A stretch of 64,000 nt of DNA from Paludibacterium sp. B53371 (GTDB lineage: Bacteria; Pseudomonadota; Gammaproteobacteria; Burkholderiales; Chromobacteriaceae): positions 558,001-622,000 of the forward strand of contig NZ_CP069163.1 in the NCBI RefSeq assembly GCF_018802765.1, in the 5' to 3' direction. The first letter of the stretch is position 1, and each line of letters begins with the position of its first letter. Below are positions 27,465 through 41,422 of the stretch, in pieces. A program made the translations under genes and the position numbers. Below the pieces are notes generated by a model. It made no database searches. It saw only the letters and a program-made list of their open reading frames with translations, and was not told the DNA's origin.

Positions 27465-29606
27465 ATGAAAACCATTCTGATTCTGACGAGTAACGATGCA
27501 CCGCAGTTCAAGACCGAACCGATGCAGGAACTGCACGCAGTAATGGCAGATTCCGGCTACGAGGTGGTTTACCCGGACAGCAAGGAAGACTTGCTGAAGC
27601 TGATCGCGCAAAACCCGCGTATCGCAGCCGTACTGTTTGACTGGGATGACTTCGGTCTGGACCTGTGCAGCGAAATCAGCAATCTGAATGAAAAGCTGCC
27701 GCTGTTCGGCTTCGCCAACCACAATACCGTTCTGGACGTGTCGCTGACCGAACTGCGTCTGAACCTGAATTTCTTCGAATACCACATGGATCAGGCCGAA
27801 GATGTCTTCGTGACCATCGAGCAAGGTATCGAAGCCTACGTTGACGACATCGTTCCGCCGTTCACCAAGGCACTGTTCAAGTACGTTGAATCCAACAAGT
27901 ACACCTTCTGCACCCCGGGTCACCTGGGCGGTTCGGCCTTCCTGAAGAGCCCGGTCGGCAGCGTGTTCTATGATTTCTACGGCCCGAACGTATTCAAGGC
28001 CGACGTTTCGGTGTCCATGCCGGAACTGGGCTCCCTGCTGGACCACTCCGGCCCGCACAAGGAAGCCGAAGAGTACATCGCCAAGGTCTTCAACGCGACC
28101 AACAGCTACATCGTGACCAACGGTACCTCGACCGCCAACAAGATCGTCGGCATGTTCGCGGCACCGGCCGGTTCGACCATCATGGTTGACCGCAACTGCC
28201 ACAAGTCGCTCACCCATCTGATGATGATGAGCAATGTGACCCCGATCTACTTCCGTCCGACCCGTAACGCCTACGGTATCCTCGGTGGCATCCCGAAGAG
28301 CGAATTCACCCGCGAAGTGATCGAAGAGAAGATCGCCGAAACCCCGAATGCTACCTGGCCGACCTATGCCGTGGTGACCAACTCCACCTACGACGGCCTG
28401 CTGTACAACACCGAGTGGATCAAGAAGACCCTCGACGTGAAGCACATGCACTTCGACAGCGCCTGGGTGCCGTACACCAACTTCCACCCGATGTACAAGG
28501 GCAAGTATGGTATGAGCGGTGAAACCGTTCCGGGCAAGGTGGTTTATGAAACCCAGTCGACCCACAAGCTGCTGGCTGCCTTCTCGCAAGCTTCGATGAT
28601 TCACATCAAGGGCGAAGTGGACCATGAAACGTTCAACGAATCGTTCATGATGCACACCTCGACCTCGCCGCAATACGGTATCGTTGCCTCGACCGAAGTG
28701 GCTGCCGCCATGATGAAGGGTAACGCTGGTCGTCGCCTGATCGAGAACTCGGTTGAGCGCGCCCTGAACTTCCGCAAGGAAGTGAAGAAGCTGCGTGAAG
28801 AAAGCAAGGGCTGGTTCTTCGACGTATGGCAACCGGAAGCGATTGACGGTGCGGATTGCTGGCCGCTCAAGCCGAGCGACAACTGGCACGGTTTCAAGAA
28901 CATTGATGCCGACCACATGTACCTCGACCCGATCAAGGTCACCATCCTGACCCCGGGCATGAGCAAGCAAGGTACCCTGGAAGACACCGGTATCCCGGCT
29001 TCCATCGTGTCCAAGTACCTGGACGACCACGGCATCGTGGTTGAAAAGACCGGCCCGTACAACCTGCTGTTCCTGTTCTCGATCGGTATCGACAAGTCCA
29101 AGTCGCTGAAGCTGCTGCGTACCCTGACCGAGTTCAAGCGTGGCTACGACCTGAACCTGAAGGTCAAGAGCATGCTGCCGAGCCTGTACAATGAGCATCC
29201 GTCCTTCTACGAAGACATGCGCATCCAGGATCTGGCACAAGGCATCCACAAGCTGATGCGCAAGTTCAACCTGCCGGAAATGATGTACCACGCCTTCGAA
29301 GTGCTGCCGCAACAAGAACTGACCCCGCACAAGGCATTCCAGCTGGTGCTGAAGGATCAGACCGAAGAAGTTTACGTGGAAGAGCTGGTTGGTCAGGTCA
29401 ACGCCAACATGATCCTGCCGTATCCTCCGGGCGTACCGCTGGTTCTGCCGGGTGAAGTGATCACCGAGGAAAGCGTTGCCGTTCTGGACTTCCTGCTGAT
29501 GCTGATCGAAGTGGGCAAGCACTACCCGGGCTTCGACACCGACATCCACGGTGCTTACAAGCAAGAAGACGGCCGTTACAAGGTCAAGGTCATCAAGCGC
29601 AGCTAA
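27465..29606 (+). CDS. cadA: Inducible lysine decarboxylase CadA
   Basis: PLP-dependent decarboxylase of 713 residues (E. coli CadA has 715) that turns lysine into cadaverine and CO2 and so consumes a cytoplasmic proton. It has an N-terminal wing domain (1-130), the PLP core with the Schiff-base lysine in ETQSTHKLLAAFSQ near 367, FDSAWVPYTNF before it, and a C-terminal domain (565-713). FCTPGHLGGSAF and DRNCHKSLTHLMMM match lysine rather than arginine or ornithine decarboxylases. AAGGGAAG precedes the start. It forms an operon with cadB, and no cadC lies beside it. Confidence 0.95.
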   Translation: MKTILILTSNDAPQFKTEPMQELHAVMADSGYEVVYPDSKEDLLKLIAQNPRIAAVLFDWDDFGLDLCSEISNLNEKLPLFGFANHNTVLDVSLTELRLNLNFFEYHMDQAEDVFVTIEQGIEAYVDDIVPPFTKALFKYVESNKYTFCTPGHLGGSAFLKSPVGSVFYDFYGPNVFKADVSVSMPELGSLLDHSGPHKEAEEYIAKVFNATNSYIVTNGTSTANKIVGMFAAPAGSTIMVDRNCHKSLTHLMMMSNVTPIYFRPTRNAYGILGGIPKSEFTREVIEEKIAETPNATWPTYAVVTNSTYDGLLYNTEWIKKTLDVKHMHFDSAWVPYTNFHPMYKGKYGMSGETVPGKVVYETQSTHKLLAAFSQASMIHIKGEVDHETFNESFMMHTSTSPQYGIVASTEVAAAMMKGNAGRRLIENSVERALNFRKEVKKLREESKGWFFDVWQPEAIDGADCWPLKPSDNWHGFKNIDADHMYLDPIKVTILTPGMSKQGTLEDTGIPASIVSKYLDDHGIVVEKTGPYNLLFLFSIGIDKSKSLKLLRTLTEFKRGYDLNLKVKSMLPSLYNEHPSFYEDMRIQDLAQGIHKLMRKFNLPEMMYHAFEVLPQQELTPHKAFQLVLKDQTEEVYVEELVGQVNANMILPYPPGVPLVLPGEVITEESVAVLDFLLMLIEVGKHYPGFDTDIHGAYKQEDGRYKVKVIKRS

Positions 29607-38007: not shown

Positions 38008-39171
38008 TCAGAACTTGTGGCTCAGACTCAGGCTGGTGCTGGTCAGGGTGGTGGCACGCGCGGCCACAGCGGCCCCCGCCTGGGGGGCGAAGATCAGCCG
38101 GCCATGAGCGATACCGGCCTGCGTGCGTTTGGAGAGCTGGTAATCGGCCCCGATGATCCACTGACGATAGCCGGTCTGCGGCAGGCGTTCTCCGTTCGTG
38201 CGCTGGTCCCAGCCATGTGCCAGTGTCAGTTTTGCTGTGATGGCGCCACGGGTGTGTGCCAGCGAGAGCGCCGCCTGCCGGGTTTGCAGCCGGCTCTCGG
38301 CGGCTGACTTCATGCCCCCCGTTGTCCCCTGGGGGTGCTGGCTGTCGCCGGAAAAGCCATCGGTCCAGTCATAGCCCCGCGCCTGCTGCCAGGCCAGAGC
38401 CAGCAGCCACTGGTCATTGCGATAGCCGGCCTCGAAATAGTGCAGATGAGCGGGCTCCAGTTCGCCGCCCGCCTGGGGACGACACTCTTTCTTGTCTCCG
38501 GTCCGGCGCAGACTGCAGGGATTGGCTTCGCGTTGAAAGGCATAGGCGGCAAACCATCCCTGAGCGGCATAGCTCAGGCCCAGCGAAAAAATGTCGGACG
38601 GCCGTTCGATCTCCGCCTGCCCTGTGCTGTCACGCGTGGCGTTTTCGCCAAAGCCGTAGCTGAGGCTGGTTTGAAAGCCCGCCACGACCGGAGAGTCATA
38701 GGCAATGGCGTTTTTCAGCCGTTTGCCCGGATTGGTGAAGACCTTGAGGGCATCGGCGCCGAAATTCCTCATGCCTTCATGCCCCTGATGACGGTGATGG
38801 GCAATGCTGCCGCCCGAGCGCCACTGATTGACCGTGTACAGCCCCTTGAGCGCACTGTTCAGATGTCCCAGGCGCAGGGTGCCCAGCGAGGCATCGCTCA
38901 GTCCGGCAAAGGTCTGTCCCGGAGACGGGGCCTTGCTGCCATCCAGCTCGGCCTCCAGCTCGATCTGCCAGAGGGTTTTCAATCCATTGCCCAGCGACTC
39001 ACTGCCCTTGATGCCGAAATGTGTACCGGCATTGTCCAGCCGGTTCTGGTTCGGCCCCCGCGACAGGGTGTGGCGGCCAAGGCTGCCGTGCAGTTCGCCA
39101 TACAGCGTGACATCGGCCCAGAGCGGGGCGGACAGCGGGCAGGCCAGCAGGGGGATCCAGCGTAGATGCAT
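38008..39171 (-). CDS. Outer-membrane porin of the Gram-negative (betaproteobacterial) family
   Basis: General porin of 387 residues forming a beta-barrel channel. A short signal peptide ends at about [14 protein letters not shown], the usual first strand. Family features include [28 protein letters not shown]-like [11 protein letters not shown], and the [16 protein letters not shown] segment; the protein ends in LSLSHKF with the terminal aromatic needed for Bam recognition. Two cysteines in a loop near 232-243 ([12 protein letters not shown]) could form a disulfide. The start codon is preceded by AGGAG, which is buried in a perfect hairpin. Confidence 0.9.
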
Positions 39172-39172
39172 G

Positions 39173-39207
39173 GTATGACTCCTGAATGTGAGTAAAAGGA
39201 GTCATAC
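39173..39207 (-). promoter_or_regulatory. Hairpin sequestering the porin ribosome binding site
   Basis: On the minus strand GTATGACTCCT is followed, after 13 nt, by its exact complement AGGAGTCATAC, 1 nt before the ATG. The 11-bp perfect helix contains the whole Shine-Dalgarno AGGAG. Such a fold should hold translation low until it melts or a partner binds. It could also act as a DNA operator for a dimeric repressor. Confidence 0.65.
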
Positions 39208-39398
39208 AATTTAAACAGTCTTTTTAAGATTGATAGGGTGCATGGCGGCCGAAGTTTCATGAATTGTCTGATTGCTATATGTCTCAATAAATGGGTTGAG
39301 CCAAAATCATGAATAACGACAATTTCATGATCTGTCGCAAGAATGTGTCGTGATATGACCACAGTGCGGCATGCCCGGGGCAGATCGGACATGCTAGA

Positions 39399-39433
39399 AT
39401 CATTAGCTTAAACATAATTAGTTTGCTAATGAT
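39399..39433 (+). promoter_or_regulatory. Palindromic operator of the MarR regulator gene
   Basis: ATCATTAGC and GCTAATGAT form 9-bp perfect arms 17 bp apart, and the right arm touches the marR ATG. AAAC and GTTT within the spacer form a second, inner pair. TAGAAT at 39395-39400 is a possible -10. The AT-rich palindrome is the kind of site bound by MarR dimers, which suggests autorepression. Confidence 0.6.
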
Positions 39434-39901
39434 ATGCCGACCCAAAACGATCGCTTCAGCGAAGCCCTGGTGCATCTGATGAAAAACTGGCGCAGTGCCC
39501 TCGATGCCCGGTTCCGGCCTTTCGGTCTGTCTCAGGCGCGCTGGCAGGTGCTGCTGAAACTGTTACGTGCCGGTCAGCCGCTGGCGCAATGTGATCTGGC
39601 CCAGCGCATCGGTATCGAACCGGCTTCGCTGGTGCGGCTGCTGGATGCCTTGCAGAGCGAGGGACTGGTCAGTCGTACGGCCGATCCGCATGACCGGCGC
39701 AGCAAACTGGTGTCGCTGACCGGGCAGGGGAGCGCGCTAGGACAGCAGCTGGCGCTGATTGCCGACGAGATGAAAACTGAATTGCTCGGCAGCGTACCTG
39801 CCGAGGCCCTGGCCCAAACCATCGAGGTGCTGGAGCAGCTGGAGCAGCTGGCTGCCGCCATGCTGGCGGCGCACACGGCGTCGGATTGTGCACCGGAGTA
39901 G
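39434..39901 (+). CDS. MarR-family transcriptional regulator
   Basis: Winged-helix dimer of 155 residues. The recognition region is LAQRIGIEPASLVRLLDALQ and the wing follows with GLVSRTADPHDRRSK, the classic MarR DRR motif. It is 3 nt upstream of a DHA2 exporter, an arrangement typical of ligand-responsive drug efflux (SlyA/EmrR-like). There is no Shine-Dalgarno before the ATG; the operator palindrome occupies that space, so translation may start on a short or leaderless mRNA. Confidence 0.92.
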   Translation: MPTQNDRFSEALVHLMKNWRSALDARFRPFGLSQARWQVLLKLLRAGQPLAQCDLAQRIGIEPASLVRLLDALQSEGLVSRTADPHDRRSKLVSLTGQGSALGQQLALIADEMKTELLGSVPAEALAQTIEVLEQLEQLAAAMLAAHTASDCAPE

Positions 39902-39904
39902 GTT

Positions 39905-41422
39905 TTGAGCCAGGCTCCGGCAAATCGGATGTTGATCATGGTGGCGGTCATGTCCGCCACCATCATGCAGGCGCTCGATACCACGATTGTCAATGTGGCC
40001 CTGCCGCAGATGCAGGGCAATCTCGGTACGACCGCTGATCAGATCAGCTGGGTCTTGACCAGCTATCTGGTGGCCTCGGCGATCTTCATGCCGCTGACCG
40101 GCTATCTGACCGATCTCCTCGGTCGGCGTCGGTACCTGCTGTATTCGATTGCCGGCTTCGTGCTGGCCTCCATGCTGTGCGGCGTGGCGCAGAATCTGGC
40201 GCAAATTGTGCTGTTTCGCCTGCTGCAGGGGGTCTTCGGCGCCGCACTGGTTCCCTTGTCCCAGGCCATCATGGCGGATACGTTTCCGTTGGCCGAGCGC
40301 GGCCGGGCGATGGCCATCTGGGGCATGGGGGTCATGATCGGCCCGATTGGCGGCCCGACGCTGGGGGGCTGGTTGACCGATGTGCTTGACTGGCGCTGGA
40401 CGTTCTATATCAATGTGCCGGTTGGCCTGATCTCCCTGTGGCTGGCCCGGCAGGTGCCGGATACGCCGCGCAGGCAGCGCGACATGGACTGGCTCGGCCT
40501 GTTGCTGCTGACCCTGGGCATTGGCGGGCTGCAATTCGTGCTGGACCGGGGGAATACCGAGGACTGGTTTTCCAGTCAGGCCATTGTGGCGGCCACCTTT
40601 GCCAGTGTGATCGGCATGGCCGGCTTTGGTTTGCGAGGCCTGCTCTCGCGCCAGAAGCCGCTGTTTGATCTGCATATTTTCCGCGACGGCAATTTTGCGG
40701 CCTCCAGCTTCGTGATCACCGCACTCGGGCTGGCCATGTATGGCGCCATGGTGATTCAGCCGATCATGCTGGAAGGCCTGTTCCATTACCCGACCCTGTC
40801 GACCGGGCTGGTCATGGCGCCACGCGGCATTGCCAGCATGATCAGCATGATGATGATCGGCCGGCTGGTGTCGAAAGTGGACGTCCGCTATCTGATCGGC
40901 ACCGGCATCCTGATCGGCGCCTGTGGTACCTGGGTCTGCACGCACTACACGCTGGAGACCAGCACGGCCTGGTTTATCTGGCCGGTACTGCTGCAAGGTT
41001 TCGGGTTAGGGATGATCTGGGTGCCGCTGTCGACGCTGGCCCTGTCAACCTTGCCGGCGGCGCTGACCGCCGAGGCAGCAGGTCTGTTCAGCTTGTTGCG
41101 TACCATCGGCTCCTCGGTGGGGATTGCCGTGATCACTACCTTCTACACCCGGGACACGCAGGCTGCCTGGAATCATCTGGTTGGGTATTTCAATATCAAT
41201 AATCCGGCACTGTGGTCTTATCTGAATCTGAGCGGGCGCACCGTGCTGGATGAGACCTCGGCCAGCATGCTGGCCAGCGAGCTGGACCGCCAGGCGCACA
41301 TGGTGGCGATTGTCGATGTTTACTGGCTGATTACCTTCAGCTTCCTGCTGATGCTGCCGCTGGTGCTGATGCTGCGTCAGCGCAAGGGGGTGGTGCACAA
41401 GGTAGAGATCGTGGCGGATTGA
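39905..41422 (+). CDS. DHA2-family multidrug exporter (EmrB-like)
   Basis: Major facilitator protein of 505 residues with about 14 membrane helices, predicted to expel drugs by proton antiport. Motif D1 is seen in IMQALDTTIVNVALPQM, motif A in YLTDLLGRRRYLL and motif C in IGPIGGPTLGGWL. The start is a TTG at 39905 with CGGAG at correct spacing; the next ATG (39929) lies in the first helix and would shorten it. The EmrA-type adaptor that normally accompanies EmrB is missing here. Confidence 0.9.
   Translation: MSQAPANRMLIMVAVMSATIMQALDTTIVNVALPQMQGNLGTTADQISWVLTSYLVASAIFMPLTGYLTDLLGRRRYLLYSIAGFVLASMLCGVAQNLAQIVLFRLLQGVFGAALVPLSQAIMADTFPLAERGRAMAIWGMGVMIGPIGGPTLGGWLTDVLDWRWTFYINVPVGLISLWLARQVPDTPRRQRDMDWLGLLLLTLGIGGLQFVLDRGNTEDWFSSQAIVAATFASVIGMAGFGLRGLLSRQKPLFDLHIFRDGNFAASSFVITALGLAMYGAMVIQPIMLEGLFHYPTLSTGLVMAPRGIASMISMMMIGRLVSKVDVRYLIGTGILIGACGTWVCTHYTLETSTAWFIWPVLLQGFGLGMIWVPLSTLALSTLPAALTAEAAGLFSLLRTIGSSVGIAVITTFYTRDTQAAWNHLVGYFNINNPALWSYLNLSGRTVLDETSASMLASELDRQAHMVAIVDVYWLITFSFLLMLPLVLMLRQRKGVVHKVEIVAD

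Follow-up and report, generated by a model that had tools for sequence, protein, structure and literature searches.

A conserved hairpin over the Shine-Dalgarno sequence of a Paludibacterium porin gene, a candidate cis-acting repressor of translation

Introduction

Porins determine what enters the Gram-negative cell. Directly before the start codon of one porin gene of Paludibacterium sp. B53371, an inverted repeat with perfect arms includes the Shine-Dalgarno (SD) sequence, and the question raised by this locus is what the corresponding hairpin does: whether it acts in the mRNA or in the DNA, and whether something opens it. The gene lies in a stretch of 64,000 nucleotides (the window; contig NZ_CP069163.1, positions 558,001 to 622,000, forward strand), whose numbering is used throughout. 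An earlier note on this DNA had proposed an RNA thermometer or a switch controlled by a small RNA (sRNA). On balance, we consider it probable that a lineage-specific, cis-acting hairpin strongly represses translation of the porin and needs an opener. Statements about published systems refer to excerpts of the papers cited.

The porin gene and its hairpin

The following features, all on the minus strand, make up the gene and the region directly before it:

38008..39171, minus strand: porin gene, 387 aa, Gram-negative porin (ORF list, domain and PDB sequence matches)
39173..39183, minus strand: right (3') arm, AGGAGTCATAC, which carries the SD (sequence, repeat search, fold)
39179..39183, minus strand: SD sequence AGGAG, 7 nt before the ATG (sequence; GGAG common to three orthologues)
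39184..39196, minus strand: 13-nt loop, TTTACTCACATTC / UUUACUCACAUUC (sequence, fold)
39197..39207, minus strand: left (5') arm, GTATGACTCCT, with the anti-SD UCCU (sequence, repeat search, fold)
39208..39215, minus strand: TTTAAATT, adjoining the left arm on its 5' side (invariant in three orthologues)

The 387-aa ORF matches the domains Porin_4 (E 1.7e-24) and Porin_1 (E 8.7e-24), as well as five PDB sequences: two carry the name outer membrane protein, and the other three are PorB/P.IB porins, which we take to be those of Neisseria. Sequence inspection and a repeat search bore out the exact hairpin that the earlier note had described: 39197-39207 pairs with 39173-39183 in a perfect stem of 11 bp with a 13-nt loop. 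Read on the minus strand from 39207 to 39173, the order is GTATGACTCCT - TTTACTCACATTC - AGGAGTCATAC, followed by C39172 and the ATG (39171-39169); the 3' end of the hairpin, which holds the porin AGGAG, lies 1 nt before that ATG. The 65-nt region folds at -16.8 kcal/mol (z -3.36), a value matched by 1 of 200 shuffles, and in this fold UCCU faces AGGA.

The exact hairpin pattern occurs at one place in the genome of 3,626,872 bases, as does the looser pattern TATGACTC-N10..30-GAGTCATA. In a sample of 464 kb (the window plus 20 stretches of 20 kb), a scan for perfect stems of 8 bp or more, with loops of 3-25, that are closely followed by a possible ORF start (minimum 80 codons) returned 153 stem/start combinations. 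Those with an SD sequence in the 3' arm were all 8-bp stems except the porin hairpin; no other perfect stem of 10 bp or more in this sample had an SD in its 3' arm immediately before a possible start codon. When the 60 nt upstream were shuffled by mononucleotides, 11 of 200,000 shuffles produced a perfect stem of 11 bp with its end 0-3 nt upstream of the ATG, a rate that, multiplied by about 3,400 genes (gene number assumed), gives a chance expectation of about 0.2 per genome. Rarity by itself is therefore only moderate evidence for function, and conservation, the stronger argument, must decide.

The genome also holds, outside the window, long palindromes with arms of 20-28 bp and GGGGTCAGGTCTT (L055:5237-5294, L059:8098-8153, L061:2804-2868 and L071:10879-10939), presumably a REP-like repeat family. 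The window has one 12/13 match to GGGGTCAGGTCTT, at 29314-29326, and a match was also found in 4 of 100 shuffles.

Conservation within the genus

In a protein search of 61 genomes of the family, 20 had a match at E up to 1e-40. Close orthologues of the porin were found in two other genomes, both of the same genus and here called G002 (58% identity) and G004 (57%); the next matches had at most 44% identity. A draw of 399 genomes spread evenly over the order returned only the window genome itself at E up to 1e-75, but that sample evidently lacked G002 and G004 and is uninformative about the genus. The window species, G002 and G004 share the arrangement of marR and the MFS gene, a divergent porin gene, and mutS, with identities to the two orthologues of 73 and 69% for MarR, 88 and 86% for the MFS transporter, and 89 and 87% for MutS. 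Three genus mates (G001, G003 and G005) are without a close porin orthologue; in G005, other ORFs occupy the 1.5 kb upstream of mutS. The features concerned are:

39168..39250, minus strand: conserved block of the leader, with 77% identity to G004 across 83 nt (alignment)
39434..39901, plus strand: gene for a MarR-family regulator, oriented divergently to the porin gene (domain match; orthologues at the equivalent place in G002 and G004)
39905..41422, plus strand: MFS transporter gene, downstream of marR (domain match; arrangement also in G002 and G004)

Both orthologues keep the hairpin, with ten pairs or most of ten, so that the pairing held up in the comparison that the earlier note had named as a check. 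Across the three-species alignment, 28 of the 30 cells of the ten-pair stem are paired, against 31-43% of cells in six slid controls, and an unconstrained RNAalifold consensus recovers the same ten pairs. The innermost, 11th pair of the window species is absent from both orthologues, and the GGAG of the SD is invariant in all three. Two pairs, both in G002, have changed on both sides (G-C to A-U and A-U to G-C), and five have changed asymmetrically (two in G004, three in G002), three of the five to G.U. G002 has also lost two outer pairs and gained an inner AGUA/UAUU helix.

The pattern of change differs between the two comparisons. Against G004, 2 of 20 arm columns have changed versus 10 of 15 inner columns, that is, the loop and the innermost pair (Fisher 0.0009), and the left arm alone stands at 1 of 10 (Fisher 0.012). 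Against G002, 7 of 20 arm columns and 4 of 14 inner columns have changed, with no difference (Fisher 1.0), four of the changes falling in the first ten columns of the left arm. In 40 of 500 column shuffles, double changes and paired cells were as numerous as observed; the covariation score was reached in 27 of 500 and the number of further pair types in 333 of 500. With three sequences, the covariation of the stem is suggestive, not proof.

Beyond these three species, a covariance model built from their leaders and run on the 61 family genomes returned the same three and one weak match (G059, E 0.25). A scan of genome contigs yielded one locus, a more distant porin (40%) of a Paludibacterium metagenome-assembled genome, whose leader is that of locus L008 and where freeing the SD costs only 2.7 kcal/mol.

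An ATG inside the left arm (39205-39203, minus strand) is present in all three species. Only in G002 does its frame match that of the porin, which would gain a longer signal peptide; in the other two the frame differs (68 and 28 codons). No SD was seen before this ATG at 39205-39203. We regard it as incidental, coupling through it being possible.

Further conserved sequence lies between the divergent genes. Directly before marR, an AT-rich stretch with repeated TTAGCA/CTAAT elements (39391-39432), conserved in G002 and G004, has the look of a likely MarR operator or promoter. Within 39285-39360 (minus strand) are more conserved blocks, among them CACGACA, present in all three species, and a CTCAAC-CATTT-TTG block common to the window species and G002 only; these may be promoter or regulator sites.

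Predicted masking of the SD

The earlier claim that a strong helix hides the SD agrees with the predicted cost of freeing it, 12.4 kcal/mol in the window species; the costs in G002 and G004 are 8.8 and 9.6 kcal/mol, and those at 26 other porins of the family 0.2-3.7 kcal/mol. For the comparisons of leaders, accessibility and opening costs, we used 31 of the 47 porin-match loci (L002-L048), omitting before counting L018-L031 (short or distant matches), L032 (a duplicate of L008) and L045; L016, whose start is probably misplaced, has no accessibility or opening-cost value and L017 no opening-cost value. Among the 30 porins with an SD, its mean unpaired probability is 0.010-0.022 in the three orthologues and 0.29-0.84 in the other 27.

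Within the 464-kb sample of its own genome, where 117 ATG starts were called crudely with the porin among them, the window porin has the highest SD-freeing cost. By mean unpaired probability, it is not exceptional in this G+C-rich genome, where burial of the SD is not rare: the value is at most 0.05 at 24 of 224 crudely called starts, and 0.022 at the porin.

In an excerpt of the work that relates folding cost to initiation, the slope is 0.45 mol/kcal (PMC3936740). By extrapolation of that slope, the extra cost of about 7-10 kcal/mol would correspond to a roughly 20- to 100-fold lower initiation.

Where the transcript may begin

Whether the hairpin can act in the mRNA depends on the transcript start. 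A strict promoter scan of 39000-39600 found none. A frequency-based scoring script, with scores compared with shuffled maxima, returned weak sites only, including an aligned group at -108, -109 and -110 in the three species with a start near -97, which would place the whole hairpin inside the mRNA. In the window species, this group is represented by one feature:

39274..39304, minus strand: weak promoter-like pair TTGGCT, 19 nt, TATAGC; the whole hairpin would then lie in the mRNA (promoter scoring)

G002 and G004 have -10-like matches at about the equivalent place (-109 and -110), and none of the three aligned sites reaches the mean best score of shuffles. The best scores anywhere were 4.7 in the window species and 6.4 in G002, below the mean shuffled maxima of 7.0 and 6.7, and 8.3 for TATACT at -118 in G004 (start near -106), within one standard deviation of the shuffled maximum (7.1, sd 1.4).

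TTTAAATT, at -44, also has a weak -10 score, with a predicted start near -30, inside the left arm. Either the leader uses it, single-stranded, for landing or binding, or it is a promoter element of the -10 type; in the latter case, transcription could begin within the left arm, and about 6 bp of stem would be left, a start that by the criteria of the earlier note would refute its reading. We infer that transcription begins 5' of the left arm.

A probable lineage-specific repressing hairpin

The reading that we favour takes the hairpin as a translational control element. A stable, SD-covering helix conserved in orthologues, as found here in three sequences only, is what characterizes control hairpins that sequester the SD. 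In the porin mRNA leader, the left arm would pair with the SD and with what follows it, stopping 1 nt short of the AUG; access of 30S subunits to the start codon would be poor, and little porin would be made in the basal state. A local helix of such high predicted stability should fold immediately upon transcription and stay shut through ordinary temperature changes. Opening would then fall to an activating sRNA or an RNA-binding protein that invades or melts the left arm or, alternatively, to 30S subunits that load on the conserved AU-rich UUUAAAUU just 5' of the hairpin and unfold it. An sRNA complementary to the left arm is a possible opener; a search for exact matches found no other copy of the 11-mer half in the genome.

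It is the gap between this porin, which its conserved hairpin should nearly shut, and the 26 far more accessible porins of the family that points to an opener. In the most specific form of the proposal, one porin of this lineage would sit behind a nearly locked gate, far too stable to yield to heat, and stay silent pending a specific signal; a dedicated sRNA or protein, or 30S subunits loading on UUUAAAUU, would open the gate. We offer this form tentatively and hold it to be rather unlikely as a whole.

Other explanations

The alternative that survives best is a DNA operator: a repressor, dimeric or tetrameric, would bind the 35-bp interrupted palindrome over the transcription start of the porin gene, and TTTAAATT would serve as the -10 element. 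At the DNA level, too, the arms form a perfect palindrome, a divergent gene for a MarR regulator adjoins the porin gene in all three species, and the -10-like TTTAAATT, with its start predicted at about -30, is invariant among them. The both-side changes preserve a palindrome as much as a helix; G.U, found at three of the five asymmetric positions, is compatible with an RNA helix but not with a DNA palindrome, and weakly favours RNA. Operator half-sites of 11 bp with a 13-bp gap would be unusual, and this palindrome coincides with the SD and the AUG, not with a recognizable promoter. The genome has no second exact copy of the site or of a half-site, which argues against a regulon of several sites and would still suit an operator with a single target. 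Taken together, these points leave the operator as a possibility that we think doubtful.

A further explanation keeps the hairpin in the mRNA and dispenses with regulated opening: it would mainly protect the 5' end or tune translation to a constant low level. In an excerpt on ompK36, a stem over the SD created by mutation lowers porin output and is not a switch (PMC9499542), and ribosomes can use upstream standby sites beside stable hairpins (excerpt of PMC3936740), a part for which the conserved AU-rich segment directly upstream would be suitably placed. A predicted strength of 8.8-12.4 kcal/mol, well above the 0.2-3.7 at 26 other porins, speaks against such tuning, which we consider improbable.

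The two halves of the earlier proposal, thermometer or switch, have fared differently: the switch in general stands, and the simple RNA thermometer, by which warming would melt the helix and the porin be made at higher temperature, is now very improbable. An SD buried in a hairpin is typical of known thermometers, outer-membrane genes such as ompA and chuA are under their control (excerpts of PMC8245352 and PMC9002310), and the SD is paired in silico at 25 C in all three species, as a thermometer needs at low temperature. At 50 C, however, it is predicted to remain shut in all three: the unpaired probability of GGAG is at most 0.001 in the window species, 0.094 in G002 and 0.056 in G004, and the cost of freeing it is 11.4, 7.9 and 9.3 kcal/mol at 42 C and still 10.0, 6.7 and 8.1 kcal/mol at 50 C. 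For comparison, the four Paludibacterium species in a table excerpted from PMC12943652 grow within 15-42 C. This predicted closure, together with the excerpted report that perfect pairing locked the Yersinia ompA thermometer shut (PMC8245352), makes a thermometer unlikely. Membership of the FourU class was rejected, UCCU and not UUUU lying opposite AGGA, and an Rfam search of 38900-39500 at E up to 1 gave no thermometer match, its one match being on the opposite strand with 18.1 bits against a cut-off of 60.

That the palindrome arose by chance and has no function is scarcely credible: the shuffles allow about 0.2 such cases per genome (gene number assumed), but both close orthologues keep the hairpin, with two both-side pair changes, despite only 57-58% identity of the porins.

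Comparison with known systems

Hairpins in 5' untranslated regions that sequester the SD and are opened by an activating sRNA or protein form a general class. The hairpin described here resembles them in that a local helix covers the SD and the start region and an activator would be needed to free it; it differs in that its own activator and the length of its leader are putative. Among the literature matches listed, outside whose coverage many subscription papers fall, no publication on this hairpin appeared, and it looks like a fresh example of an already known type of genetic switch. It offers a simple test case in which ribosomes or small RNAs meet a perfect SD-masking helix.

Four systems, as described in excerpts, are closest. 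In the ompA thermometer of Yersinia pseudotuberculosis, the SD of an outer-membrane protein gene is likewise paired in a leader hairpin, but a bulged A in the SD lets it open at 37 C, whereas the porin hairpin pairs perfectly and, by prediction, stays closed at 50 C (PMC8245352). The Escherichia coli chuA thermometer, which involves the sRNA CyaR, also covers the ribosome-binding site of an outer-membrane gene; it is a FourU element, in contrast to UCCU paired with AGGA, and its activation by CyaR is independent of the covering hairpin (PMC9002310). In Klebsiella pneumoniae ompK36, the recurrent mutation 25c>t creates an SD-covering stem that lowers translation of a porin mRNA by pairing coding sequence with the SD, whereas the present stem is conserved and lies wholly 5' of the start codon (PMC9499542). 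Finally, the sRNA NcS25 of Burkholderia cenocepacia controls the porin gene BCAL3473 by pairing with its SD in trans; in the Paludibacterium porin the pairing strand is supplied in cis (PMC10117139).
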